A stretch of 64,000 nucleotides of DNA from Geosiphon pyriformis (taxonomy: Eukaryota; Glomeromycota; Glomeromycetes; Archaeosporales; Geosiphonaceae). Below the pieces are notes generated by a model that did not search any database, was not told where the DNA came from, and saw only the letters and a program-made list of their open reading frames with translations. Location: contig JAAOMT010000595.1 in assembly GCA_016748015.1 (NCBI GenBank), forward strand, positions 252,282 through 316,281, given 5' to 3'. The translations under genes were made by a program, and so were the position numbers. The first letter of the stretch is position 1. Each line of letters starts with the position of its first letter. Positions 21,693 to 63,281 of this stretch are shown here, one piece after another.

Positions 21693-21741
<49 letters not shown>

Positions 21742-22022
21742 GATTGTACTGTTATTTATTATGAATGGATTCCGTGGGAGCGTTTGTCGAATATCAACGA
21801 AATTGCTAGAGGAGGGTTCGGTGTAATTTATAAAGCAACTTATATCGATGGACTAAAGTAAGACTATTTATAATATCAAATTTGCATGCACAGCAGTAAT
21901 TTGTTTTATCATTTAGAATGCTCCCTTGCGACTCTTTCACACTTATTGCATCATGTCCAGAATATTGGTCTCCATTGCAAGAAGAGAATTATTTGGTAGC
22001 TGATTTGTGTTTAGCAAAATAA
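21601..22022 (+). pseudogene. Truncated TKL-type protein kinase N-terminus with poly-Asn tract
   Basis: Exon 1 (21601-21857) encodes a leader, a run of about 15 Asn from an AAT microsatellite (21695-21740), then YYEWIPWERLSNINEIARGG followed by FGVIYKATYIDGLK. The EWIPWE lead-in and GGFGVIYKA glycine loop match the start of kinase domains in the large Glomeromycotina TKL-like family. The next splice (GTAAG to ATTTAG) joins exon 2 (21917-22022), which adds only 34 residues without a VALK lysine, HRD or DFG motif, and then a stop. A working kinase domain needs about 230 more residues, so this is a remnant or a very short gene. The surviving part would bind at most the nucleotide loop. I classify it as a truncated kinase with good confidence for the family. 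Confidence 0.65.
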
Positions 22023-24111: not shown

Positions 24112-25191
24112 TTAAAATCTGAAGCTATCAGATGTCTTTCTTGGTTCTGGAGAAATAAACCATCCAATTATAGGTGAAACAACAATCTCCATTTCACCTC
24201 CTTCCCAGACACTCTCTTGTCTCGCACCTAAAAATCCTGCCGACATGTTCAAGTCTTCTGCCAATTCCTTCCCAATTAGTTTTAATTTAAATGGAACATT
24301 TACTCTGCCTTCTGGGACTTGATCAACAGCCAAGTAGTTTGTTGTTAATCTGTTTTGTTTTTTATCATATGGGAAAAATGCCGCAATCCATCCTTCATAC
24401 CGACGAAGTTCTCCGGATGCGTATCCTCTAGTTGACATTACTTTACTCCAAAATTCTTTATCGATTTCACCACGATAGGTAGCAACAAATTTCCAAATTA
24501 CGGGTTCTAATCTATCTAACCAGAAATTCATATCAAGCCCAAGTTGTCGAAGCCTGACAACTTTTTCTTGAAGTTTTTGCCAATCTTCTAAGGTTCCAGT
24601 AAGAGTAACTTTTGGAATTCCACATCCACCTCTCAAAGTGTAAGTAAAATATTTTTTCATAGCATCCAGTAAAACAATACGACTAGCGGTGATTGAAGCT
24701 TCGGAACTTGTAGAAAAGTCACAAACTAGCGTTTTAACAAGATCAACTTTTTCTACATTCTTTTCAACTTGGGCCACCAAAAGATTAACAGCTTTAGGCC
24801 AATCAAGGGGATCAACGAAGATTTCCAAATCTTTTTTTCCTTCATGTGCAACAAAGTGTGAACGTAATTGTTCAGCATTGATATTGATATGCTGACTAAC
24901 ACCTTGGGCAATCGTCAACCAAAGGTCATCGGGTGAAAGAGATAGATGTTGATGATAATCGTATGATTGATGAATTGCTTGGAAGAATCCATGAGGTGTT
25001 TTGGTGTATTTCAGCTGTGTAGTTGGACTCTCATAACCTGATTGAGAATAATCAATTGAAATTGAATGGGCTATAGGAAATTTTTCTTTTATCTTTATGT
25101 GTTCAGCAAGTTTGTTTGATTGCTCTATATTGCTATCGATGATCTGAGTACTTCTTGGAAAAGCATTTTGGAGAATTTGAGTATAATTCAT
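24112..25191 (-). CDS. DUF4419 family protein
   Basis: A single-exon frame of 359 residues with normal codon structure throughout. The central part has the hallmarks I associate with DUF4419: HGFFQAIHQSYDYHQHLSLS (about residues 67-86), then PDDLWLTIAQGVSQHININA, LRSHFVAHEGKK, LVCDFSTSS (about 155-163), GGCGIPKVTLTGTLEDWQKL (about 188-207) and a C-terminal GWFISP. DUF4419 proteins are widespread in fungi with no established biochemical role. No signal peptide or membrane segment is visible, so a cytosolic protein is likely. The start Met is preceded by a TATAAATAG box about 50 bases upstream, which supports this start. The family is expanded in mycorrhizal fungi. Confidence in the family is high; function is unknown. 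Confidence 0.88.
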   Translation of the reverse strand: MNYTQILQNAFPRSTQIIDSNIEQSNKLAEHIKIKEKFPIAHSISIDYSQSGYESPTTQLKYTKTPHGFFQAIHQSYDYHQHLSLSPDDLWLTIAQGVSQHININAEQLRSHFVAHEGKKDLEIFVDPLDWPKAVNLLVAQVEKNVEKVDLVKTLVCDFSTSSEASITASRIVLLDAMKKYFTYTLRGGCGIPKVTLTGTLEDWQKLQEKVVRLRQLGLDMNFWLDRLEPVIWKFVATYRGEIDKEFWSKVMSTRGYASGELRRYEGWIAAFFPYDKKQNRLTTNYLAVDQVPEGRVNVPFKLKLIGKELAEDLNMSAGFLGARQESVWEGGEMEIVVSPIIGWFISPEPRKTSDSFRF

Positions 25192-33840: not shown

Positions 33841-34048
33841 AGGTTGGGCGCGCTTTCCAGTGAAAGAAATTGGTCCAATTTTTTCTGGCATCATTTTTTA
33901 TATAGGAAGATATTTTGGACCCACTACACAATTTGACGAGGAAGCAATCATCATTGAATTCAAGCATCCAAGATACTTAATTTTGGGCCTTTGCTTAAAA
34001 AAAAAAATTTTTTTAAAAACCCCCCAATTTTGCTTGCTTAAAATAGCA

Positions 34049-34891
34049 ATGGAATCTCCTCAGCCTATCTATGATAATTTTGAAATCATGACAATACCAC
34101 CAATTGCTTCTACGTCAATGGAATTAGAATCCTCGGTCATCGTCAATGAGACTATTACACCTGAACCTCTGACTCCAGTATCTTTGATTGAAATCGAAGA
34201 ATCAAATTTGCCAACTGATCTTTTGGATTCTTTAGAACGGAGAAGACTGTTTCGTAAACAAAAAATTGATATTTTATTGCATGAATTTGAGTATCTTGAT
34301 GCAATGATTGACGGAGCAGCCACCTACGTATCATTATGCCAAAAATATGAACAAATATATTCTTTATGGGTCTATGCATACCCACATTTTAACCCATTTG
34401 AACTTAACTTACAAGAAGCAAAAACATGGCGCTTAATCCCGGCTATTTTACTATGTTATAAACATTTTCTCATTCGCAAAAGAGAAAATATGGATTTGCA
34501 AAATTTCGATATGGATGATAGATTAGAAGAAGGGCGAACCTTGCGTTCAATCCCAAAACGAGGGGATAATGATATCGTGAAATTGGTAAAAATTTTCGAT
34601 AGAGCAATGAATATTATTGGGATGTATTCGACAAAATCAATTGAACCTCCATTGAAAAAAGAAAAAAAATTGCGAGAGTTTACTGTTAAAGAATTACGGC
34701 AAGAATGGAAAGAGTTGATTAAAAATTTAAGAACCGTTAGAGATGCCTGGGCGGCTGGTGAGGAAACTGAAATTCACAGTACGCGAGAAAGACGAGGTTG
34801 GAAATGTGAGTTTAGAAGATTAAGAAGGAAAGTTGAGGCTTCTTCTGTCCTTGATTTAGATCTGAATATAAAGAAAAAATGCAAAAAGTAA
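34049..34891 (+). CDS. Orphan helical protein
   Basis: 280 residues from the Met at 34049 (MESPQPIYDNFEIM). The frame is open from 33860, but the extra 63 residues are hydrophobic and include a Lys/Ile homopolymer stretch (KKKIFLK), and a TATA-like box sits at 33832, so the later start is preferred. Residues 1-60 are acidic and Pro/Thr-rich. After that the protein is mostly charged helices: RRRLFRKQKIDILLHEFEYL, SLCQKYEQIYSLWVYAYPHF, EFTVKELRQEWKELIKNLRT. It has a basic C-terminus ending in KKKCKK that could act as a nuclear signal. No domain recognised. Single exon; no frameshift. Likely a lineage-specific gene. Confidence 0.6.
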   Translation: MESPQPIYDNFEIMTIPPIASTSMELESSVIVNETITPEPLTPVSLIEIEESNLPTDLLDSLERRRLFRKQKIDILLHEFEYLDAMIDGAATYVSLCQKYEQIYSLWVYAYPHFNPFELNLQEAKTWRLIPAILLCYKHFLIRKRENMDLQNFDMDDRLEEGRTLRSIPKRGDNDIVKLVKIFDRAMNIIGMYSTKSIEPPLKKEKKLREFTVKELRQEWKELIKNLRTVRDAWAAGEETEIHSTRERRGWKCEFRRLRRKVEASSVLDLDLNIKKKCKK

Positions 34892-36359
34892 TTTTAAAGG
34901 TCAAAGAATATTGAAATGAGTTGTGTAAATGCTGTACATGTACTGTGCATGCTAGAAAAATTCTCGAGTTACACCTAATTAGAAAAACCGAAAATTTTAG
35001 TGACTTGTCATACAACTGATCATCAGCTTTCTTATACAAAGTTAGAATGAATTCTAGAACTTAATTTCTAAATTTGTATAATGATTGACGTAGAGTTAAT
35101 TTTAGCTTTCAGCTGTCATGCTTAAACTAATAAGGCAAGGTTCATGTTCGTATTCTCGTTCGGCTCTTTGCGCAATTATCCGAAGAAAAATTATGTTTGA
35201 TTTCCCATACTTTTTACGAACATTTAACAAAATTAAATTTTAAAAAGGATCTCACCATCTCAATAAATTATATAAATGAATTTTAAATATATTGAAGGAT
35301 AAAGTTTCGCTAGATTAAACTTCTGTTTGAGAAGCAGCCAAAGATTCTTAAAATGATGTATAATGTATGTATGAGATCATCCTGTGTTGGTCTTAAAATA
35401 AGAAACTGGAAAAATGTCCCGATACAATATTTTAAAATATAACCATTTAGTTAATTTTAATTCAGTTGAAAGGATTTTATTAATAGCAAATGAGTCACTG
35501 TAATTTTGTTGTTGATAAACTTAAATTAAGAATGGTTTTTGAAAGAAAGTATGCTCGAGATAGCTTGAAAAAAATTTACTTATTAAAGGGTTTGTAACAA
35601 GAGAGATAAAATTTGTTAATATAAGAATTATTCTTTAATATCAAGAGAACTAGACAAAAATTTTTCAAGATTGAAATGATTGTGATTATCAAGTTCCAAA
35701 CAGAATTTTTCAATATTAGTTTTTATCAATTTCGGCAGAATGACTCATTTATTTTCGAACTCTTAACTATCATGGCTAAAAAAAATTTGAGATTATTTAA
35801 TAAGAAATTGTAAAATAATTTTATATTAAAAATACCAGCCTAAAAATTGAAAAAATACTTAAAAATTACATTCAATTTTAAAAATAAATCAAAATAATTA
35901 AATTTTTTAAACCTTATTTTAAATTAAATTTTAATATTGAACACTTTATCAGATTGATAAGATATTAATTAACGCATCTCTCTCACGTTAAATATTAGTT
36001 TGTTTTTATACGGGTTAAAATCTTTTAAAATAAATAATTCCTAATGAAATTTTAATGCCATGAAATATATTCACCAAAAGGTTTCTCTATAGAGACTTAT
36101 ACTTATTTTAATCGAAAGTAATGAAGCATCAATTTTTTTTAAGATATTTTTTAAATTTTAATCATCCCTAAGTATTTTCTTTTATATCAGTCATCATAAT
36201 TGCCAAATATATTGGAAATATGATAATTTTAAATAATCTTTTTTGATTCAAAATATAGTTAATAATAAGCTGGACAAACGAACAAATAAAAAAACAAACA
36301 AACAAACAAATCTTTTTATCTGGCTAGTAAACTAATATTAAAAGTTTGAATTTTTCTCA
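34892..36359. other. Intergenic stretch
   Basis: No supportable gene. AT-rich with an (AAAC)n run at about 36288-36310 just upstream of the next ORF. Confidence 0.6.
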
Positions 36360-36671
36360 ATGAGTTTTTCTTTTCATTTGAGAGTTTTCATCATCATTAG
36401 ATTTATTATATTTTTCAATTTGACTGGTATGATTCAATACTCGAACGAAGAAATTTCTATTGATCTTTCAAATCGGCTAAAATCTCTAATGCTATACGAA
36501 CCAGGAGTTATTAATTCTGACTATAACTTAAAAATTACACCAGAAACAAGATATCAAAAAAAACCAATACAGCAACAAAATTTTCCGAGAAATATAAAAC
36601 ATTTTCATCGAACTAGAATTCTGCCAATAACATTGATTAAGCCTAATCCAAGTGTTTCTCCGCTTCGTTAA
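36360..36671 (+). CDS. Small putative secreted protein
   Basis: 103 residues. Residues 1-22 (MSFSFHLRVFIIIRFIIFFN) form a hydrophobic signal-peptide-like or anchor segment. The remainder is hydrophilic, with Pro, Gln, Asn and basic residues (RYQKKPIQQQNFPRNIKHFH, then RILPITLIKPNPSVSP), and has no Cys. No family recognised. Length, signal and lack of domains fit a small secreted protein, a class that in mycorrhizal fungi includes candidate effectors, but nothing here shows that role. It could be a chance frame. Confidence 0.4.
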   Translation: MSFSFHLRVFIIIRFIIFFNLTGMIQYSNEEISIDLSNRLKSLMLYEPGVINSDYNLKITPETRYQKKPIQQQNFPRNIKHFHRTRILPITLIKPNPSVSPLR

Positions 36672-37478
36672 ACGAAATCTATCGGCTCATAAAAAAACTT
36701 TTGAGATAATCTTTAATTGTCGACACCATAAAAAAAGTAAACGATGAAAGTATTTTATAAAATTCAGAAACGTAATTATGAAGCTTTTTAAAAAATATTG
36801 TAGATAATTCAAGGTTTAATACTTAAATATAGAATTTCAAAAAGTGAAGCTCATAAGTACCTTGATTTTAATCTATCTAAATGATCGCTTTTTCAAAATA
36901 TAAATATTATGCCAACTATGAGTTAGGATCTAAGTTGAAAATTAAAACCCTTTAGTGTGATCTAGTAGACTTAAATATGATTGTAATATCATTTGATGTG
37001 ATCGATCATGTTGTGCAATTAGAAACTTTACAAAAATTCTAAAGTATTTTTCATTTGTCCTCAAATCTTTAAAAGTTAAGAAGAATAATATAAATAATCA
37101 CAATTTGATTTAGGCTAAATTTTTTTCAAAAGGATAAAATACACATTAATCCTATACTTTTAAAAAGATGTATCAACATTTAATCCCCACCCCAAAATAT
37201 ATTCATATTCAGTCAACTGTGAAAACCAGTCATGTTATCACGATGTCATTTTGATGATCTGTCAAGATTTCAGACCAGCAACCTATTTATTTTCTCAAGA
37301 GGAAAATATCGATGCGTGTTCAGACTTTATAATGTCCAAGTTGGTTTGTCACTACGCCAAATGACCACTTTTGTTAAAAAGTACAACCGAAATGATCGTC
37401 AATTTTGATAAGTCTGATTTTCAACCTTTTTTAATTACAGTTCAGTTGGCGATCACTTAAAAAACCAATATTGATACT

Positions 37479-38627
37479 ATGTCTTCGACAATTCAAAAGA
37501 ATGAAAAAACACCGCCAATATTCAGAGGTTTCCAACGCGAACAATTATCTGGATTTTTTAAACGACTTGAAAGCTCTTTTAAATATCTTTCAAAAGAAGT
37601 CACATCTACTGAAGAAACATTAAATGATGAGCAAATAAAGATATTGGAAATTTATCTCGCATCAGAAGCCAAACGTTGGTACAACAATGTAAATTGGAAT
37701 GATTGGCAAAATGGAAAACCAGGTCCTATAAAGAATTCTATCTCACCAAAACCTGGCAGAGTTCCTGCGACTTATGATCAACGAAAAGCCTGGATGTTTG
37801 AAAACTTCCCATTTCATTCCATTGGCGAAAAATTTCAGTATAAGGATTATTTGAAACAAGGTCCTTTAGAATCACCCAAAAATTTTTATCAAAGAATTGT
37901 TCACGTTTTAAAAGAGAAAGGTTTGAAGGATAATGTCATTTTAGAATCGAGATTTGTTGATGGCCTCTATCCACAATTAAGAATTTATATTCCTCAAATT
38001 ACCACGAAATCTATGAAATTTGCTCAACATGTTGATCGTGTTGACAAACAATTTCATAAAATGTGTCCAGAGAGTGATTTAATTCATTCAAAATCTGATT
38101 ATGGAATTTTAAAATGGACAGGAGTCTTCAGTAATGATTCTCCTAAATCAGATGATGAAAAGTTTAAAAAACTCCCTCCAATGGGTGCAGTCCTTTGCCT
38201 GAAACAAGGATTCGACGAAAGTCCATGGGACTATTATATTCGGCTTGGAGATGCCTGCGAGCACGACGGTATAGATGTTGATCAAAGCCGAAAGCTATTG
38301 TTTTATCGTGGATTAAATGAAAAAGTTCAAGAAGAGGAAAAGGTTTGGAACGCTTCGAACCTTGAAGAACAGGTTGCCATGGCACATCAATGGTGGATGA
38401 AGGATTATTGGAAGAATCGACATCACGAAGCTCATCTAGAGTTTGCCAAAAGCAAATATCATTATGAACAAGTCGAAGAAACAGATTATCAATTTTCACA
38501 TCCTCGCTACAGCGTTCTTCCACTCAATGGGGGTTCAGATGAATTTTTTTACGATATCATGCAACCGAATGTTGACACTAGTCCAACATTTGCCATCGGA
38601 GATCCATCCACTTGTAGTATTTCTTGA
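37479..38627 (+). CDS. Gag/capsid-like protein with duplicated capsid-type motif, no pol
   Basis: A single-exon frame of 382 residues. It opens with PPIFRGFQREQLSGFFKRLE (residues 12-31), the start typical of Ty3/gypsy Gag capsid regions, followed by LASEAKRWYNN (60-70). Residues 125-140 read LKQGPLESPKNFYQRI and lead to RFVDGLYPQLRIYI (158-171). Residues 241-256 read LKQGFDESPWDYYIRL and lead to LLFYRGLNEKV (273-283). Both follow the capsid C-terminal pattern (QxxxESxxxYxxR ... F..GL...). The second half therefore looks like a duplicate of the capsid C-terminal domain. There is no CCHC zinc knuckle, protease, reverse transcriptase or LTR nearby. A single uninterrupted frame suggests retention of a Gag-derived gene. 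An acceptor-like TTACAG at about 37436-37441 could mark a 5' UTR intron. Confidence 0.65.
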   Translation: MSSTIQKNEKTPPIFRGFQREQLSGFFKRLESSFKYLSKEVTSTEETLNDEQIKILEIYLASEAKRWYNNVNWNDWQNGKPGPIKNSISPKPGRVPATYDQRKAWMFENFPFHSIGEKFQYKDYLKQGPLESPKNFYQRIVHVLKEKGLKDNVILESRFVDGLYPQLRIYIPQITTKSMKFAQHVDRVDKQFHKMCPESDLIHSKSDYGILKWTGVFSNDSPKSDDEKFKKLPPMGAVLCLKQGFDESPWDYYIRLGDACEHDGIDVDQSRKLLFYRGLNEKVQEEEKVWNASNLEEQVAMAHQWWMKDYWKNRHHEAHLEFAKSKYHYEQVEETDYQFSHPRYSVLPLNGGSDEFFYDIMQPNVDTSPTFAIGDPSTCSIS

Positions 38628-39160
38628 GAATATTTTCTATTGGATTTATGAATTAGACGACATTGACAATCAATGAATTTCAAAATTTTATACTACTAAT
38701 CTAAGAGTTCTTAGCTTTCAAAATCAAAATATTTGTCAAATATTTGCTACGGGTATATTCTGGAATTGAAAATTTTAAAGCGATTTTAGGTTTAAAGTTT
38801 AGAGCAAACTTGAAATTTTTTTAAATATTAGACTATATACATGAATTTAAAGTAAATCTTTCTTTCCTTTTTATCGATCATACTTGCAAATTGATTTATT
38901 AAAAAAGTTCTTCCGGGTTCATAATTTCCAGAAAGTACGCTATCATGAAAATACTCTAAAACAAAGATGTACATGAACTGCCCATCCAAAAATAATGGTG
39001 ATCAAAGATTCTCTTGAAATAATCCTTGATAAACCTCATGTAGGAAAAAGTTTGGATTATCTGAAATATTATGAAACTCCAAGGATGATGTTTTGAATTA
39101 AAAAGAAAATGTAAAAGTTAGGTTGGAATAATTATCTTTCTTTATGAATCTGATTATAAG
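38628..39160. other. Intergenic stretch
   Basis: Separates the capsid-like gene from the lipase-like gene. No ORF continues from the capsid frame into a pol region, and no LTR-like repeat was noticed. Confidence 0.6.
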
Positions 39161-40936
39161 ATGAATTTGAGAACCCATTTCGATGGATCATGGAGGATGA
39201 GAAATCATGGGGGTAGAACATTGCCAATAGCGGCATTATTGTTCTTTCCCTGGTGCTCACAATTTTTTTCTATATTTATCGATGCTTCCCCAAGTTTTCT
39301 GTTTGCCAAGAGGGAAAGTTCATACGCGGCAGAACAGAGCTCTAATAAATTAAATGAAGGCTTAGTACAAAATTTGTTTTCTCATAATGAAACAATTTGG
39401 TATGATAAATACTATTCCACTGGATTAAATACGGAAAAACCCAGTAGATATGATTTGGGAGATACCTTCGAATCTATGACTCCTATTAACAACAACAATA
39501 TCCAACAGCTTCCCGTGAATGACTTTGAATTTGGTTTAGACCCATCAAGTAATCAAAATTTTATGTTAACCGAACTTGAAACCTCAAGTGAAAACAAGGA
39601 AAAAATTTTTCAACCCTTTAATGATTTCAGCTTGTCTACTGGGCTATCAAGTCAGAATTTGCAAAACAAAGAGGAAGAGTCTTTTGAAGAAATAGTTGAA
39701 ATAACCCCACCACTATTAGATTCAAAAAAATATCAAAATAAACTTTTTCCAGAACAAAGCTCGCGAAAAAAAGTTAGTGAAGGCAAGGAACAATCAGGAA
39801 ATGAGAAAGGCTTATGGGAATTTCTCTTTGGGGATGGTTTTCCTCGTGATACCAAATATCGCCAACGAATAATGAATCCCAACATTCGACGTCTTCTTAT
39901 TACTTTTGGAGACATGACAAAATACGGTTTCTGTTTTGCCATGAGTCGCGGAGTCGCTTATTCTCCCGATCTTTATGGTTAGTTAGTGGACCCAAATATT
40001 TTCATGATCGGTGCTTCATCTTTTAAGGAATTTCACTTTTGAATTTTTCTCTGATAGGACTTTCGGGTTACGATATTGAAAAGAAAGAAATTTATGTAAT
40101 TTTGAGTTACCATGGCAAGGTTGGCAAAAAATTATTTTTCACTGAGGAAAAACCGCCCCCATTCACGGCTTATAAACCCGTAAATGGAAGCGAGATTTTG
40201 TTGAATCAATTATTGTATCAAGAGTTTTTACTTGCACGGAAAAATTTTACACAACAAATTCGACCCTTGATTCAAGACGGCTATACTATACACATAACTT
40301 CATGGGGAGTTGGGGCGGGTAATTTGAACTGATTAAATTTATTGCTAGATTACAAATTTTTTAATAATTTAAAAAATGTTATATTTTTTATTTTTAGCAT
40401 TCGCCGTTCTTTGCGCCTTAGCCATCACAGAGGAATTCTCACAAACAATGGGAAAAGTCAACTTATACACCTTTGGCCAGCCTCGAATTGGGAATGAAAA
40501 TTTTGCGAAATATGTCAACTCCAGGGTTCAAGCATTTCGTGTGACGCGAAAGCATGATGAATGGCCAATAACACCTTCTTTTCAATACGGTTTTGTACAC
40601 CACAATACAGAGTATTGGATTTCCTCGCCTTTTGAGGTGAGAAGACCAAATAAAGGGCCGCTATATATGTGTAATGCAAAATCAGGTGAAGAGAGTCCGG
40701 TAAGTCGGCATTTTTATTACTTTAGGGGTTATTTTTTCTGTTCTATTTTAAATTTAACCTAAACTTTTTCCAAGGATTGTACAAACTCTGAGATTCTCGA
40801 GAGTGGCTATGTATCAGACTCTCATCAACATCCCTTTTTTGGTCTCGATATGAGCGTTATCGATTGCTATCACTATCCGCCACCAACTCCTTTATTCCTC
40901 CAAAATTCCAAGACTGGATTTCTAGGTAATTCCTAA
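39161..40936 (+). CDS. Secreted class-3 lipase-like protein with Gly in place of catalytic Ser, four exons
   Basis: Predicted exons are 39161-39977, 40058-40318, 40398-40699 and 40775-40936, with GT..AG ends and consistent phases, giving 513 residues. Residues 18-45 are hydrophobic (TLPIAALLFFPW ..FSIFIDA), fitting a signal peptide or anchor; a Met at residue 13 could be the real start. Residues 55-245 are low-complexity and Asn/Ser/Glu-rich. The lipase domain follows: YVILSYHG, then the elbow ITSWGVGAAFAVL, where Gly356 occupies the Ser position of TGHSLGGA. FGQPRIGN (385-392), the Asp-containing HDEWP (Asp413) and FVHHNTEYWI (His427) are conserved. The C-terminal exon begins DC and ends in DxSHQHPFFGLDM and CYHY. 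The clean frames argue for a functional gene. Without the nucleophile it probably is not a classical lipase; a binding or signalling role is inference. Confidence 0.8.
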
Positions 40937-41440: not shown

Positions 41441-42514
41441 TTGATGGCCTCCACGCTCCCTGTATTATGTCTTTACGAAATATTTCATTGTGTTCTTGAA
41501 AAACGGTCCCTTTATTCATGTGCCCAAGTGAGTCGCCATTGGTGTCAAAATGCGATTCCAGTTATGTGGCGTGAACCACTGCCGGTAGAATCAGCAGGGC
41601 CGTTTATTGAGACTTTACTTCGTTGCTTCCCCGAGACCAAATCTGAAAAACCTTTGATGTTCCAATACAGCTATTTTATTAAACAAATCTCTGTTACTTT
41701 ATTTTACAAAGCGATTGTTCAATGGGCGAGAATGAATTGGACCTCTGATCAAGAAAAATCTCCTTTGATTATTTCCAAGACGCTTCATTTTCTATTGCGT
41801 AATTTAATTATTCAGCCGAATGCATTTATTGATCTTGATATTGAATTTGATGAAGAAATTCAGGAAATTATCGACAAAGAAAAAAGCGACTTTCAAACCT
41901 CAGAATGGAATCTTTTTACGCTTCCTGGTGCCGAGATTTCCCTTGGTCATTTGAAATCCTTAACAATCTTTGGAAAACAGAATTTAGAAATTCTTTTAAT
42001 GGCTGGAAAAATTTGTCCTCGGATTGAATCTCTAAAAATTTTCGGAGATCCTCAGCACTTGTTTCCAATATTGCCAAAGTTGGAAAATTTTATTAATCTG
42101 AAGGATTTGCACATTGATAACATGGGATTCTATACTTTATGGGCTGAAGATTATCTCAAAGATCTTGCCAAACAACTGCCTAATACTTTGGAAGGTATAT
42201 ACATTTATGACGACTTAAACTTCTCACCAGATGCTTTAGCGCAATTTTATGAGGGGCTTAAGCATAGAAGTCTTTTATCCTGCTCCCTACCAAACTCAGA
42301 ATGCATCTCTGATAAACATTTAGATGTTTTTGCTGAATATGGGAAAGGGAAGCTGACTATTCTTGATATCGGTGAGGCTCGATATGTCTCGAGGAAAAAG
42401 GCTGACGAGTTACTTGATATGGGCATTATTGTTTATGTGAGAACTTACTGGGATGAGGAAGAATGGGATGAGCAATTTAATTTTTTGACTTATCAATTGA
42501 GATACCCTTTTTGA
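41441..42514 (+). CDS. F-box/LRR-type protein
   Basis: A single-exon frame of 357 residues. It opens MMASTLPVLCLYEIFHCVLE with an F-box: LPVLCLYEIFHCVL, then LYSCAQVSRHWCQNAIPVMW followed by REP (residues 6-50). The remainder has irregular Leu-rich repeats (LKSLTIFGKQNLEILLM, LKDLHIDNMGF, LTILDIGEARYVSRK). This is the layout of the large Glomeromycotina F-box family, in which the F-box contacts Skp1 and the repeats are thought to select substrates of an SCF ubiquitin ligase. The second Met (MASTLP) is the likelier start because the neighbouring paralogue starts the same way. The gene converges with the paralogue at 43.0-44.6 kb; the two 3' ends are 505 bases apart. Confidence 0.82.
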   Translation: MMASTLPVLCLYEIFHCVLEKRSLYSCAQVSRHWCQNAIPVMWREPLPVESAGPFIETLLRCFPETKSEKPLMFQYSYFIKQISVTLFYKAIVQWARMNWTSDQEKSPLIISKTLHFLLRNLIIQPNAFIDLDIEFDEEIQEIIDKEKSDFQTSEWNLFTLPGAEISLGHLKSLTIFGKQNLEILLMAGKICPRIESLKIFGDPQHLFPILPKLENFINLKDLHIDNMGFYTLWAEDYLKDLAKQLPNTLEGIYIYDDLNFSPDALAQFYEGLKHRSLLSCSLPNSECISDKHLDVFAEYGKGKLTILDIGEARYVSRKKADELLDMGIIVYVRTYWDEEEWDEQFNFLTYQLRYPF

Positions 42515-43019: not shown

Positions 43020-44552
43020 TCAATTACTAATATCATCTCTCAACTCCCTATAATTGATCTTAATTACTGGTATGAAGATTTTTGCATCTCTAAAAGCTGA
43101 TCTTGTCACATAATAAGCATTGTTTATATTCAGTTCGTACAAATGACTGGCGTATTTTCGCACCACAGCCAAATGTTTATCAGAGAAAAGCGCTGAATTT
43201 GTAAAAGAAAGCCTCTTAAATTTTGCTTCAGTATTTTTGAAAAAGTGCTCCAATGACGCAGGTGAAAATTTTAAATTTAAATCAATTGCTAGGTCTATAA
43301 TTGTGGCTGATAAGATTGAGCCTAAGCGTGGGAGAAATTCCTCAGCTTCAATAGGAGATGTTGACAGTTCCCGTGTGATATGAAGAGTTTTCAAATGGTT
43401 AAAAGAGCGAGCGACCAAAAGGATAGAATCAAGTTCAGGTAATGAACATTCAAAATGGGCTAGATTTACAAGGTGTGTGATATAAGACTTTACCAATTCG
43501 CTAGATGGAAAGCCACCTTTTATAATGACCCACTTTTTGAGACAGTGTCCAGCATTTTTAGCAAGAGCTTGAGCAAAGTTAACGCAGTATGTAGTATTAT
43601 TAATTTCGATACTCTCCAGGCAAGATATTGAATTGGTTTGGATATCTTCTTCCGCAACATCCGCAAAATTCCGACAATCTTGAATTAATAAAAATTTCAA
43701 ATTGACGCATTTCTTAAGTAGTTTGATTAAGGGATATCTGTTAAAATTAAAATCTATGAATTCCAGTTTAGTCAAGGAACTTGAACATTGGTTTAATCCA
43801 TGAAATAAAAGGTTGGGATTGCCATTGAATTCAGCAAGTCCAACATGGCTCAGTTTTTTTTGTACTAATAGGAGGATGCTCAGAGAATCTGCTCGCTCTT
43901 GTGCCACATTTGTGTCTGAATATTGGGAGGAAAGGGTAAGAACCAAGCTTTGAATTTCATGTGAAACCTTAGCAGCTGATAAAAGCATTTGTGGAGGATA
44001 GGCTTCGAGTAAAAACAAAATTTCTAGCTTCCGAAAAGAATTTTCTGCGCCTTCAAACGAAAATACATCCCATGAGCTGTGATCCCAATTATTTTGGTTA
44101 AAAGCGATTGCGTATACAAAGTCACTCGACAACTGTGTAATCTTGGACGAGCAACGAACCAAGTGCCTGCAAAAGGTATTTAAAACTAAATTTTCAGATG
44201 AATTTCCAGCTCTCATTTCACACCAATCAGATATAATCCTTGAGAGGCTTTCAATAGGAAGGTGTCGAAGAAATTTGGTATATGGAAATAGTGGATGTTG
44301 CTGGGCGATTGTTGGTAATCGATTACCAATTTTTTCTTTTTCTTCTCTTGAGAAACAAGCCATTGATATATCGATCAGATGTAAGCAGGATATATTCCCG
44401 CTGATAATTTTAAATGGTTCTTGCCACAACCGATGTATGGCATGTTGACACCAATATCGGTTGATAAAAATGCAAGCGTATAGAGTCGGTGTGTGATTAT
44501 CAAGTGCATCAAAAATTTCGTCAAAGCATAGAGTTGGTAAAGTGGAAGCCAT
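43020..44552 (-). CDS. F-box/LRR protein, long paralogue
   Basis: A single-exon frame of 510 residues. It opens MASTLPTLCFDEIFDALDNH with the F-box at residues 4-50 (LYACIFINRYWCQHAIHRLW, then QEP). Leu-rich repeats follow from about residue 170 to the end (FRKLEILFLLEAYPPQMLLS, LKFLLIQDCRNFADV, LESIEINNTTY, HLKTLHITREL, LYELNINNAYYVTRSAF). The start and several repeat sequences resemble the 357-residue gene at 41.4 kb, including WCQxAI, WxEP and the late YVxR motif. The shorter gene looks like this one with several repeats missing. Expected role: substrate-recognition subunit of an SCF ubiquitin ligase. No frameshift or missing segment. Confidence 0.85.
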   Translation of the reverse strand: MASTLPTLCFDEIFDALDNHTPTLYACIFINRYWCQHAIHRLWQEPFKIISGNISCLHLIDISMACFSREEKEKIGNRLPTIAQQHPLFPYTKFLRHLPIESLSRIISDWCEMRAGNSSENLVLNTFCRHLVRCSSKITQLSSDFVYAIAFNQNNWDHSSWDVFSFEGAENSFRKLEILFLLEAYPPQMLLSAAKVSHEIQSLVLTLSSQYSDTNVAQERADSLSILLLVQKKLSHVGLAEFNGNPNLLFHGLNQCSSSLTKLEFIDFNFNRYPLIKLLKKCVNLKFLLIQDCRNFADVAEEDIQTNSISCLESIEINNTTYCVNFAQALAKNAGHCLKKWVIIKGGFPSSELVKSYITHLVNLAHFECSLPELDSILLVARSFNHLKTLHITRELSTSPIEAEEFLPRLGSILSATIIDLAIDLNLKFSPASLEHFFKNTEAKFKRLSFTNSALFSDKHLAVVRKYASHLYELNINNAYYVTRSAFRDAKIFIPVIKINYRELRDDISN

Positions 44553-47571: not shown

Positions 47572-49214
47572 ATGACTAAAAACAACACTTACAGAAATAT
47601 GGGCAAAGCTTATGAACGCGCAGCAATTAAAAATGAGTGGACTAACGAGGACGGTTCCGTTTTCCCTATATCTGCCGCGAATCTCTTCAAATTTCTTAAA
47701 GTGAGGGCTGAAACTTGTACTCCTCGTACCTTAGAAGGATATGTTTCTGCGATAGCCGGATACCAACGAAGTTATCGTCAGATGGATATAGATTTGGGTG
47801 CCCTCAGATCTGATCCGCAAATTCAGAAGCTTGTGAATAAAAACCCAAAGATTTATCGCAACGGTTCATTTAAAACTGGTAGGAAATTAAAGAAAAACAA
47901 AAAAAAGATGATTGATAAAGTTACTGTCGAATATGAGTACGATGATCCAATGGAAATGTCGATGAATGAAAATGAATACACTAAAGCTCGTGGTATTGTC
48001 TTGAATGATCCTGCTGTTGAAGCGACCGAAAATTTACCTATTCTTGAAGGAAAAGATGTTGGAGATATGGAAGAAGATCCTTGGGATTCTGGTCAAGGTT
48101 AGACTCAACCGCTGGGACTAACAACTTTTTAATAAGAAGGACAATAATTTGATTGGGAAACTTGTTCTAAAACAAGATGCCGAAGGTGAAGATGAAATTA
48201 GCCCTAATGATCAGAGCGAAAGTGCAGTAATTTTGAATCAACAAAACCAAGGTTGGGGAAATATAGAGATTTTTTAATTATTGAGGCCTATTAGTTCTTG
48301 ATTAAGGATGGCATTGCCGCTGGTTGCAACCCAGTTGCAACCAGTTGAAAAATTTTGAAACTCTAAAAAATGCTATCTTTATTCTCATCATATAACAAGG
48401 GGATCAATTGCAAGAAAATATTATGAGTATTTATATACCAACGTAAAACTTAATATTCGGAATTTTGAAAACCAATGAGTCATTAAACTAATGTTTTTCC
48501 AATAGGATCCTTTGATCCCAAATCTATTTCTGGAATGAATATCTTACATGTGGTGAAATCTGATCAAGGTGACTTTATTCTCCAGCTCACTAATATTTGA
48601 TTCGTGCTATATGCTTTAATTCGAAATTTTCAATTTGTCTTATGAAACTGAAGACATGGGTTCGTCGAATATTGAAGGTAACAAAACTCTGTAAACTATG
48701 ATACTTTAAAGTGATGAATTAACGTTGTTTCTCACAATAAATTTAGAACTGCCAAGTGTCCTACCCATTTTCGCAAAGGCAGCAAACGGCACTCAAGTAG
48801 GAGGCTTTTCTTTCAGGTTTATCGTTTTCCTCGGTTCAAAAAATGAATCAATCCTGAATGATTTAATTTAGGTAGAGTTATGTCGCTTTGACCTATTTTT
48901 TCGAATGTCTTTGGCAATTCTTCAAGCTGGATACGTTGGGACTTGCAAATATCATCCCTCTGGTTGTTTTCAAATCGATAAAGAAAGACACATTTTGCTC
49001 ACCGAGTCCATGTTAAAAACGTGGGCCATCTTAACGGTAGGCTTAGCTAAATATTTTGTTCAAAATTCTGGCGACATTTAAATTAGTAATTTATGAAATT
49101 TTAATGCAGGCCACAGATAAATCTATAAATCGAGATGAGTTGCCTGAATTTAAAGAGTTGCCAGAGTTTTGGCATGAAAATGCGGTTTACATTCAACATA
49201 AAAATCGGAAATAA
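47572..49214 (+). CDS. Seven-exon gene with tyrosine-recombinase core-binding-like N-terminus
   Basis: Predicted exons are 47572-48097, 48177-48251, 48506-48568, 48654-48677, 48747-48796, 48872-49036 and 49110-49214. All have GT..AG ends, and phases are consistent (first four introns phase 1, mostly after CAAG or GAAG), giving 335 residues. Residues 10-110 resemble the all-helical core-binding domain of tyrosine recombinases and Crypton-type proteins: AYERAAIKNEWTNEDGS, AANLFKFLKVRAE, CTPRTLEGYVSAIAGYQRSY, QIQKLVNKNP. A Lys-rich block (GRKLKKNKKKMIDK) and acidic linkers follow. The C-terminal part (FFRMSLAILQAGYV, CFQIDKERHIL, MLKTWAIL) lacks the Arg..HxxR..Tyr catalytic set. A DNA-binding role derived from a mobile element is inferred. 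Exon joins after the first are predictions; the recombinase likeness is moderate. Confidence 0.6.
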
Positions 49215-52676: not shown

Positions 52677-52690
52677 TAATAATAACAGTA

Positions 52691-52743
<53 letters not shown>

Positions 52744-52772
52744 GTAATATAATAATAATAATAATAATAATA
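52677..52772 (+). repeat. (AAT)n microsatellite, interrupted
   Basis: Two long blocks of AAT/ATA units separated by AGTAATAT interruptions. Non-coding: stops occur in all frames. Confidence 0.85.
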
Positions 52773-53898: not shown

Positions 53899-54102
53899 GA
53901 GGAAGTCATGTAAAATGATTCTGATAAATAGAATTTTGAAATTTTTTTTTTACAAATTCACTTCAAATCACGTATTTGATAGGCGATATTTGGTTGGTTT
54001 CAAGGTTTTACTAATATTTTCTGGCATTGATGAACGGGGGATAGATTTTAAAAGAAACGTTTGATAATTTAAAGGCTTCTAAATATCATGAGAAAATCTT
54101 TT

Positions 54103-54215
54103 ATACTATTACTACTACTACTACTATTTGTACTATTATTATTATTATTATTACTACTATTACTATTATTATTATTATTATTATTATTACTATTATTATT
54201 ATTATTATTACTATA
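54103..54215 (+). repeat. Compound (ACT)n/(ATT)n microsatellite
   Basis: Alternating blocks of ACT and ATT units over about 110 bases, differing by the C/T position, which suggests point mutation followed by expansion. Confidence 0.85.
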
Positions 54216-55275
54216 ATAAAAACATCACTATAAAAACTTGACTACTATATGATTCACAATCGTCAATATATGAAAATGAGGGACTTTGATACGTCACTTT
54301 CCTTACCCTATTTTAGATAGATATAGGCCAATCTAGACCGATCCTGAAAATTCGAGACAATAATTGTTGTGTAATATGCAACGCGTGCGTTAGTAGATCC
54401 TTGAGTTGGGGATGCTGGGATTTTCTGTCAAAAAGAGTGATAAGAAAAAATTTTTTGGTTTCACAAGAGAAAAAAAAAACGAATGGATGGGGGAGAATGA
54501 GAAAGATTTTTTTTTTGAAATTTTCAATGTTATAAATCTCATAGAGTAAACAAAATACTTAGTTTATTATGGATAAACTTCATTCAAAAAGATATTCATT
54601 TTTGTAAAAAAGTTTTAGAATTTTTTTTACTAAAATAGACATAATCAGGAAAATCATCATATATTAGCTGAGAATAAAAAACATTTTTTTTTTTTTGATG
54701 GGTTATGGTAAAAAGAAAAAAAATATGGTAACCAGAAATGATTCAATTATTAAAATTGCTATTTTTTGAATTAGTTTTTTAATCGTGGGTATTTGAAATT
54801 CCTTTTCTTTTTTTTTTTTTTTTTAAAGAATTCAATTCAAATAATTCAAATAATACAACTAATATAAAATCCCTACTAATACAACTAAAACAAAATACCT
54901 TTTATGCACTCCTGATTTTTTTTAACATAAAATAATAGAATATCACTTTTTAATATATGATCTCGAAGTGACATGAACAACAATAACAACAAGAACAAAC
55001 ACAAGGTTAACTCCAAAATACAAAATTACACAACAGCATACAGCATTATAAAAAAAAAATACTAAATTCCAAAATAGGAAAAGTTCGACAAGTAAACAAA
55101 CAAAAATTGAGAAATTCAAAAATTTTTCGAATGGTCTCGACCTTTTAATAAAAATTTTTTTTAAGCCCAATTGTATCTAAAGGGGTTATAAAGAAGCCTA
55201 GTCTGTCGAGTTCAAAAAAAATTAGTTTGTAATAATAATCTATATATATTCCTCCTTTTTTCCTCATCATCATCT

Positions 55276-55304
55276 TATTATTATTACTACTACTACTACT
55301 ACTT

Positions 55305-55340
<36 letters not shown>
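55276..55340 (+). repeat. (TAC)n microsatellite
   Basis: About twenty TAC/ATT units with one TTC interruption. On minus it would read as poly-Ser, but no gene context supports coding. Confidence 0.85.
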
Positions 55341-55342
<2 letters not shown>

Positions 55343-55605
55343 TCCCAATTTCTCTTTTCAATAGAGATAAAATAAAAATAAATAATAAAGTAATTATATA
55401 ATTGCATTAAAATTGTAATCAACTACCCCACATTTGATTCACTCACTCATAAAGAAGAAATTTAAAATAAAAGATTGTCTAATTGTACTTTAAATCAACA
55501 ACAACAACAACAACAACAACTTTGCATTTTTTTCACGCGCGCGCGCTCATTCTCACTATCACAATCATCAATCATCGTCATATTTTATTATCAAGAAAAA
55601 AGTTC

Positions 55606-62376: not shown

Positions 62377-63281
62377 TCACAATGGTGTTTCATTGATCCC
62401 ACTAACCCAATTAGGTATAAACTGCTCTAATTCATCCAGATTTTTGGGCATACGCTTCTCCACATTCCTTTTCACAATAGCCCATAAGTTTTCAATGAGA
62501 TTCAAGTCAGGACTATTAGATGGCCAAGCTATAACTTCAGGCATATTCTCTTGAAGAAAGGCTTCGGCTAGACGGCTTGTGTGCTTTGGGTCATTGTCCT
62601 GTTGAAACCGCCACTCATTCCCTAACATTCCTCTTATCTCAGGTAAATGTTCACGAGTAATTTCTACATAGAACTTAGCATCCATTATTTGGGTAAAACA
62701 AAATAAACTTACCTTTTCTTTCTCATAAAAACCACCCCACGCCATAATATTTGTTCGATCTTTTGGTATAGCACGAGTTGGTCGCTGGCCTTTATACCAA
62801 CGTTCTACTGTATTTCGGAATAGACAAAAAGCTGTTTCATCCGAAGAAACAGTTCTTTTCCAAATTATCATTGAGATGTTCTTGAGCCCACTTTACACGA
62901 TTTTCCTTGCGGAGATTTGTGAGCATTGGAATTGCCAAAGGCAAGTCTTTTATATCCATGATTAATTAAATGCCTTTGGATAGTACTAGGAGAAACGTCT
63001 ACATTCTTTTTTGCTAATTTTATTTTCAAAGTCCTCAAAGATATTGAAGAATCTCGACGGAGGTATTGTCCTAATGTTCGTGATGCATCTTTAATTTTTC
63101 GCGGCCGACCATTTCCACCCGCATGCTCCACCATCCCTGTTTTTTTGAGTTTTTTAAGGATATGATAGATAGTTGAGCGTAGTATATTTGTTCGCTGTTT
63201 TATTTCAGTTGAGTCTCGTATCCCTTCATTCCAAAAATATAATACGGTTTGGCGCTGTGTTTCTTGCTTGGAAGGTAGCAT
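62377..63281 (-). pseudogene. Tc1 transposase, split by two frame changes
   Basis: The N-terminal frame (63281-62868) has two helix-turn-helix parts: STEIKQRTNILRSTIYHILK with GNGRPRK (a GRPR-like hook), and ISLRTLKIKLAKKNVDVSPS with TIQRHL. The C-terminal frame (62871-62377) carries the catalytic core: SSDETAF (first Asp), QQDNDPKHT (second Asp) and SPDLNLIENLW (Glu). There are 34 residues between the second Asp and the Glu: a DD34E Tc1 enzyme. The two frames do not connect. Between them a third frame reads AIPMLTNLRKENRVKWAQEH, the expected linker, so at least two frame changes separate the DNA-binding and catalytic halves. The copy is therefore probably inactive, although ends and active-site residues remain. 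Confidence 0.8.

Follow-up and report, generated by a model that had tools for sequence, protein, structure and literature searches.

A single-copy capsid-like gene of Geosiphon pyriformis with two MHR-type motifs: a candidate gag descendant kept by the host

How should an intact ORF be understood that resembles the capsid part of a retrotransposon, and seems to hold the C-terminal part of that capsid twice, when nothing else of a retrotransposon is found around it? The question is raised by a gene on Geosiphon pyriformis contig JAAOMT010000595.1, in a stretch of 64,000 nt that we analyzed as a whole (here called the window; all coordinates are window positions). It might be the remnant of a dead element, a host gene of unrelated origin, or a gag descendant that the host has retained. 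The gene and the parts that we distinguish in its product are as follows.

37479..38627, + strand: ORF of the capsid-like protein, one exon, 382 aa, with ATG at 37479 and stop codon at 38625-38627
37515..37808, + strand: N-lobe-like part, residues ~13-110, of which residues 46-78 are matched by a profile of local Gags (40 domains)
37668-37682, + strand: A..WY in the N-lobe-like part, residues 64-68
37818..38093, + strand: first CTD-like part, residues ~114-205, from end-free global alignment to local Gag C-terminal domains (CTDs)
37857..37910, + strand: MHR copy 1, residues 127-144, fitting the MHR consensus except for I at the F/L place
37953..37967, + strand: FVDGL, residues 159-163, 32 residues past the MHR Q
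38166..38468, + strand: second CTD-like part, residues ~230-330, from end-free global alignment to local Gag CTDs
38205..38258, + strand: MHR copy 2, residues 243-260, a complete fit to the MHR consensus
38301..38315, + strand: FYRGL, residues 275-279, 32 residues past the MHR Q
38469..38624, + strand: acidic tail, residues 331-382, pI 4.1, without a zinc knuckle

The ORF has 382 codons and zero internal stops under both table 11 and the standard code, and an open frame of 388 codons would arise by chance with p ~1.5e-15 at the base composition of the flanks or ~1.7e-13 at the ORF's own composition. A motif scan of the protein revealed no zinc knuckle (C..C.{3,5}H.{3,5}C), no [DE][ST]G and no [FY].DD. 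A preliminary description of this DNA had reported a clean frame of 382 codons without zinc knuckle, protease or RT, and our analysis bears it out on start, stop and internal stops (with two code tables) and on the three missing features. We also observed a 119-codon frame antisense to the gene (38167-38523, - strand), whose sub-threshold match to the Pfam family Hepatitis_core (E 0.027, 14.4 bits as against a cut-off of 22.6) is probably due to chance.

The two motifs were compared with the consensus of the major homology region (MHR) in the CTD of retroviral capsids, Q(G/K)X2EX4/5(Y/F)X2(R/G)(F/L)X3H, as it is given in the cited part of PMC4734008. Residues 243-260 match the strict consensus, for which 1.7e-4 matches are expected per protein of equal composition; C was scored as hydrophobic by our own choice, and copy 2 depends on that choice at its last place. 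When I, V, and M were permitted at the F/L place, a relaxation that was adopted after I had been noticed in copy 1, the protein contained two matches. None of 300,000 shuffles of the protein had two such matches, and 92 had one. Both copies keep Q, G, E, and R, and the distance from the Q to [FL]..GL is exactly 32 residues in each; among seven local Gags that were sampled, it is 37-38 (six cases) or 47 (one case). The pattern Q-x3-E-x7-R was found in 0 of the 8 other window proteins tested. As for the 40 local Gags, none fits the MHR consensus as it stands, and 24 do so if any residue is accepted at place 2 and K is accepted as well as R.

The two motif stretches pair without a gap over residues 125-163 and 241-279. 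This upholds the earlier placing of motifs at residues 125-140 and 241-256, said to align position for position and each to be followed by a GL-containing segment; that they represent two capsid C-terminal motifs in one protein was likewise borne out, by the MHR test against shuffles. Over a longer alignment, the two CTD-like copies are 20% identical. Plain Smith-Waterman comparison gave a repeat score of 44; when the second half was shuffled, 174 of 5000 shuffles reached it. The best score over split points was reached by 26 of 500 shuffles, a slightly optimistic test because split points were stepped more finely for the real protein than for the shuffles. By plain Smith-Waterman comparison alone, then, the internal repeat is marginal (p ~0.035-0.05).

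Is the protein related to Gag outside the motifs? Ty3-type Gags are abundant in the genome (first-look candidates numbered 3109 for PF03732 and 1905 for PF19259, and 150 were scored in each case), and a profile made from pieces of seven local Gags matches Arc (activity-regulated cytoskeleton associated protein 1) in PDB with E 3e-5; our Gag yardstick is therefore a Ty3-type capsid. The profiles of local Gags were built from 40 domains out of 60 fetched Gag loci, the other 20 having no fitting domain by the motif rule, and the set seemingly contains about two Gag families, with some loci included twice. Residues 46-78, in the N-lobe-like part, scored only 8.7 bits against the local Gag profile, although no more than 2 of 5000 shuffles scored as high, and the score of the entire protein was beaten by 1 of 2000 shuffles. 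The same profile reported seven of the eight other window proteins, all with lower scores than the capsid-like protein, and left the eighth unreported.

The two CTD-like parts gave a less even result. With the local Gag CTD profile alone, the score of copy 1 was reached by 358 of 5000 shuffles and that of copy 2 by 93 of 5000. With end-free global alignment to local Gag CTDs, the corresponding counts were 7 of 1000 shuffles for the first part and 15 of 1000 for the second. Expressed as z against 24 of the 40 local Gag CTDs, near-identical ones having been removed, the first part reached 3.25, the maximum among 39 segments of other window proteins being 2.85; the second part reached 2.68, which was exceeded by 1 of the 39 segments and is close to the 2.52 of a non-lobe control stretch of the capsid-like protein itself (residues 161-260). 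Fisher combination of the three segment tests gives 9e-5, but we place the main weight on the MHR test because the segments were picked with the finding in view.

Searches of PDB were carried out with the shared motif and with larger parts of the protein. For the 29-residue shared motif, a Moloney leukaemia virus capsid peptide ranked first, with a weak E of 0.094; 3 of the 15 rows were capsid or Gag by name (the others being 'Capsid protein', E 0.66, and 'Gag protein', E 2.0), and the remaining 12 were unrelated, with beta-glucosidases or -glycosidases making up 10. Three column-shuffled controls of the motif returned six rows, none of them capsid or Gag. A longer profile of the two copies (C1/C2) yielded 4 capsid or Gag rows out of 11 (E 0.63-1.7), which ranked under rows of repeat proteins. 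The N part alone matched ribosomal protein uS14 (E 0.044) and VP1 (E 5.5), and no Gag was among its PDB matches. Kinship with pentatricopeptide repeats, for which PDB rows reached E 1.3e-12, was considered and rejected: the rows are designed repeat proteins, and in the two of these shown the single matches amount to 3-6 bits, no stretch passing by itself. Neither the whole protein nor its pieces matched any Pfam family at E<=10. An AlphaFold2 model from the single sequence, without relatives, had a pLDDT of 31.8 and a pTM of 0.20 and bears on the fold neither way.

The suggestion that the protein is a Gag-like capsid thus stands in part: the MHR, the N-lobe segment, and the PDB search with the motif speak for it, and the lack of any Pfam family at E<=10 and the poor detection of the two copies by the local CTD profile speak against it. 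On these comparisons of sequence, we regard Gag ancestry as very likely and a true second CTD as likely.

Further copies of the gene were sought in the genome (124.7 Mb in 406 contigs). Searches with the DNA, with the whole protein, and with each half of it returned the capsid-like gene as the sole copy at E<=10, and none of the genome's Gags was returned as a match to the protein at that threshold. As a control, the neighboring F-box protein was used as query; with its own locus counted, it retrieved 56 places in the genome at E<=10, of which 24 had an E below 0.001. Because this control finds distant paralogues, the empty result for the capsid-like gene is real at that sensitivity. Membership in a present multi-copy family of this genome was rejected on the same searches, and the proposed check for further elements encoding the same ORF turned up none at E<=10 besides the gene itself. 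Searches of viral and prokaryote contig collections brought up no relative of the capsid-like protein, and none for the genome's own Gags.

The surroundings of the gene, as far as they concern its status, are these.

33860-34888: neighboring 343-codon ORF without a Pfam match
36312..37478, no strand: 5' flank, matching no other place in the genome by DNA search, no LTR
38628..39160, no strand: 3' flank (533 bases), matching no other place in the genome by DNA search, no LTR
39161..40759, + strand: neighboring multi-exon gene, Lipase_3 (PF01764, E 1.4e-11, in the frame 40373-40759), its exons joined by prediction
41441-42514, + strand: F-box-like gene, from an F-box-like match
43020-44552, - strand: gene without a Pfam match that resembles its F-box-like neighbor

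On the 5' side, matches elsewhere in the genome were confined to ~35776-35941 and 36241-36311; the DNA searches with the flanks pass over simple repeats and very common words. Direct repeats of at least 25 nt between 31 and 45 kb amounted to three pairs only, of 26-37 nt and 73-77% identity, with no LTR-like pair among them. One short pair straddles the gene (35645-35681 and 39590-39626), its right copy lying in the first ORF of the lipase-type gene. Repeats of at least 60 nt between 20 and 60 kb were simple repeats and AT-rich tracts only. No Pol domain was detected by Pfam in the ten intact ORFs around the gene that the scan covered. The repeat scans, the flank searches, and the Pfam results agree with the original statement that LTRs and Pol are absent near the ORF. 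Neither LTRs, nor Pol, nor several copies, by which an active LTR retrotransposon would be recognized, were found at the capsid-like gene. Given Gag ancestry, what is found instead, a single-copy, intact ORF without an element, is one of the marks of a domesticated gag.

Composition offers a further, indirect view of how the locus has been treated. The ratio of observed to expected CpG is 0.86 in the capsid-like ORF, 0.58-1.01 in six other ORFs of the window, and on average 0.51 in 31 Gag ORF rows (which hold at least two repeated loci), 3 of which are at 0.86 or above. In codon use the capsid-like ORF is nearer to the six window ORFs (-0.943) than to the Gag ORFs (-1.010), whereas all 31 Gag rows point in the opposite direction, being nearer to the Gag ORFs. 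The 'host' side of these comparisons is six other window ORFs for composition, and eight for the z and motif tests, rather than a proper gene set. CpG methylation in transposons is reported for R. irregularis in the cited part of PMC8647823; if the present host methylates likewise, the high CpG would suggest that treatment of the locus as a transposon has not lasted long. The Gag rows themselves are not uniform: seven have CpG ratios of only 0.08-0.21 and 18 have ratios of 0.51-0.96, and Gag groups of unequal age or methylation history seem to be present. For the proposal that the gene has been kept by the host, the support is indirect, consisting of an ORF that is intact, single-copy, host-like in CpG and codon use, and placed beside host-type genes; retention by the host is on these grounds a plausible reading.

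Three other explanations have to be set against a retained gag with a doubled CTD; they overlap, and their probabilities and that of the best explanation need not sum to one. The gene could be a relic without function: an element that has died may have left a gag ORF which is open by chance and unused by the host. In favor of this, Gag-derived ORFs are plentiful in the genome, as the first-look counts above attest. Against it, with a chance of ~0.08 that a random codon is a stop, an open frame of 382 codons should be short-lived without selection. Moreover, no LTR or other element remnant was found adjoining the gene, and its CpG content and codon use differ from those of most Gag ORF rows. 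We consider a relic improbable.

The lack of a Pfam match, the lack of any returned match to the genome's Gags, and the weak profile scores and PDB E-values would all suit an unrelated orphan gene of the host, encoding a helical protein in which two MHR-like motifs arose by chance or independently of Gag. Such an origin would have to account for one complete MHR consensus and one near-match, for the equal spacing to GL in both, and for the N-lobe-like segment, which stands in its proper place ahead of them; it would have to account as well for the capsids that appear in the PDB search with the motif and are absent from the shuffled controls. We judge it to be quite improbable. No better do we rate the remaining explanation, in which the protein is Gag-derived and has one true CTD, the second motif being degenerate or convergent and no lobe having been duplicated. 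It draws on the z of copy 2, which one segment of another protein exceeds and which is barely above that of the non-lobe stretch, and on the low identity of the copies over the longer alignment, but copy 2 is the better match to the MHR, and the spacing of 32 residues is identical in both.

The explanation that we prefer, and hold to be reasonably likely from the features of the sequence, is that the gene is a stand-alone, decayed and probably host-kept descendant of a Ty3/gypsy-type gag with a duplicated capsid CTD, whose product may still oligomerize; its capsid fold, its domestication, and its oligomerization are presumptive. The order of the N-lobe A..W[YF], the MHR-like motif, and [FL]..GL is that of Ty3/gypsy Gag capsids (Ty3 and the Arc family, in the cited part of PMC6525542), and also that of the genome's own Ty3-type Gags. 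The Ty3 CA is described in the same source as two lobes of one fold, a 'double-SCAN', and in the cited part of PMC5102385 foamy-virus Gag is credited with two such domains as well; by that measure, the capsid-like protein would have three lobes. Whereas the Ty3/gypsy CA is two-lobed, the capsid-like protein has a third, CTD-like segment, and none of zinc knuckle, protease, Pol, or LTR was found with it. With the orthoretroviral capsid it shares the MHR, in full in copy 2 and in all but one residue in copy 1, but carries the motif twice, and the rest of its sequence is not recognizably retroviral.

The nearest precedent is DRT2 of Saccharomyces, a domesticated CA-CTD of Ty1' Gag that restricts its parent element, as reported in the cited part of PMC10951436. 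Both are fungal, Gag-derived genes with a capsid CTD, in our case probably. DRT2, as described there, has a known parent in Ty1' and one CA-CTD, whereas the capsid-like gene is of Ty3-like type, has a doubled CTD motif, and was traced to no parent. The mammalian metaviral capsid genes ARC, PNMA, and RTL are likewise Gag-derived, most of them without Pol and some lacking parts of CA; the cited part of PMC11011659 describes genes with half a CA and genes with a full CA and long extensions, and does not describe two CTDs, in contrast to the capsid-like protein, in which the CTD motif occurs twice. Among the matches listed in our search of the open-access literature, in the parts of the sources available to it, there was neither a Gag with two CTDs nor one domesticated in a mycorrhizal fungus. 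Conditional on the fold, a domesticated Gag with a doubled CTD would be new as a variant.

How might such a protein work? A Ty3/gypsy-type gag ORF would have lost, or would never have possessed, its zinc knuckle, Pol, and LTRs, and would now have ordinary genes as its neighbors and no second copy, its product oligomerizing still by way of its capsid domains. Packaging of RNA by the usual route is unlikely for a capsid-like protein without a zinc knuckle. The Drt2 precedent, together with the MHR, the lobes, and the missing knuckle, favors an oligomerizing subunit that would either interfere with Gag or form a scaffold of its own. In the former case, a subunit with two CTDs and no RNA-binding knuckle could be two-handed, joining Gag assemblies and distorting or capping them; in the latter, it would build its own scaffold or shell. 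A restriction role is tentative and a scaffold role somewhat doubtful, and the choice between them is a guess. Co-assembly with the common elements of today is weakened as a proposal by the misfit of the common local Gags to the MHR consensus and by the lack of detectable overall similarity. In its boldest form, that of a three-lobed capsid protein (N-lobe, CTD, CTD) which is kept by the host and still assembles, whether against retrotransposons or into a particle of its own, the proposal is unlikely to hold in full. If it were true, the second CTD would provide two dimerization surfaces per subunit, with a lattice or cap unlike that of any known Gag.

The best-known domesticated Gag genes are those of animals, DRT2 of budding yeast being the one fungal case that we found, and a single-copy case of Ty3 type in a gag-rich fungal genome would broaden the range of domesticated Gags. 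A protein whose MHR domain is doubled would, moreover, offer a natural means of testing the role of the MHR, because two such domains in each chain should change the way in which a capsid assembles.

Finally, we note several other features of the window, in which 2-kb blocks have a GC content of 14-35% and Rfam and tRNA scans gave no matches. The facing genes at 41441-42514 (+ strand) and 43020-44552 (- strand) are identical to each other at 25% and 35% of positions in two stretches. A 176-aa ORF at 47572-48102 (+ strand) has no Pfam match; its N-terminal part resembles, by eye only, the core-binding part of tyrosine recombinases, and it is possibly a Crypton-type element. An ORF at 62377-62871 (- strand) has a DDE_3 transposase domain (E 5e-14) and is probably a remnant of Tc1/mariner type. 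Long trinucleotide arrays (AAT/ATT, ACT-type) occupy 21693-21762, 52689-52767, 54095-54230, and 55261-55348. An intact ORF of 359 aa at 24112-25191 (- strand) spans the entire DUF4419 profile (E 3.6e-76).
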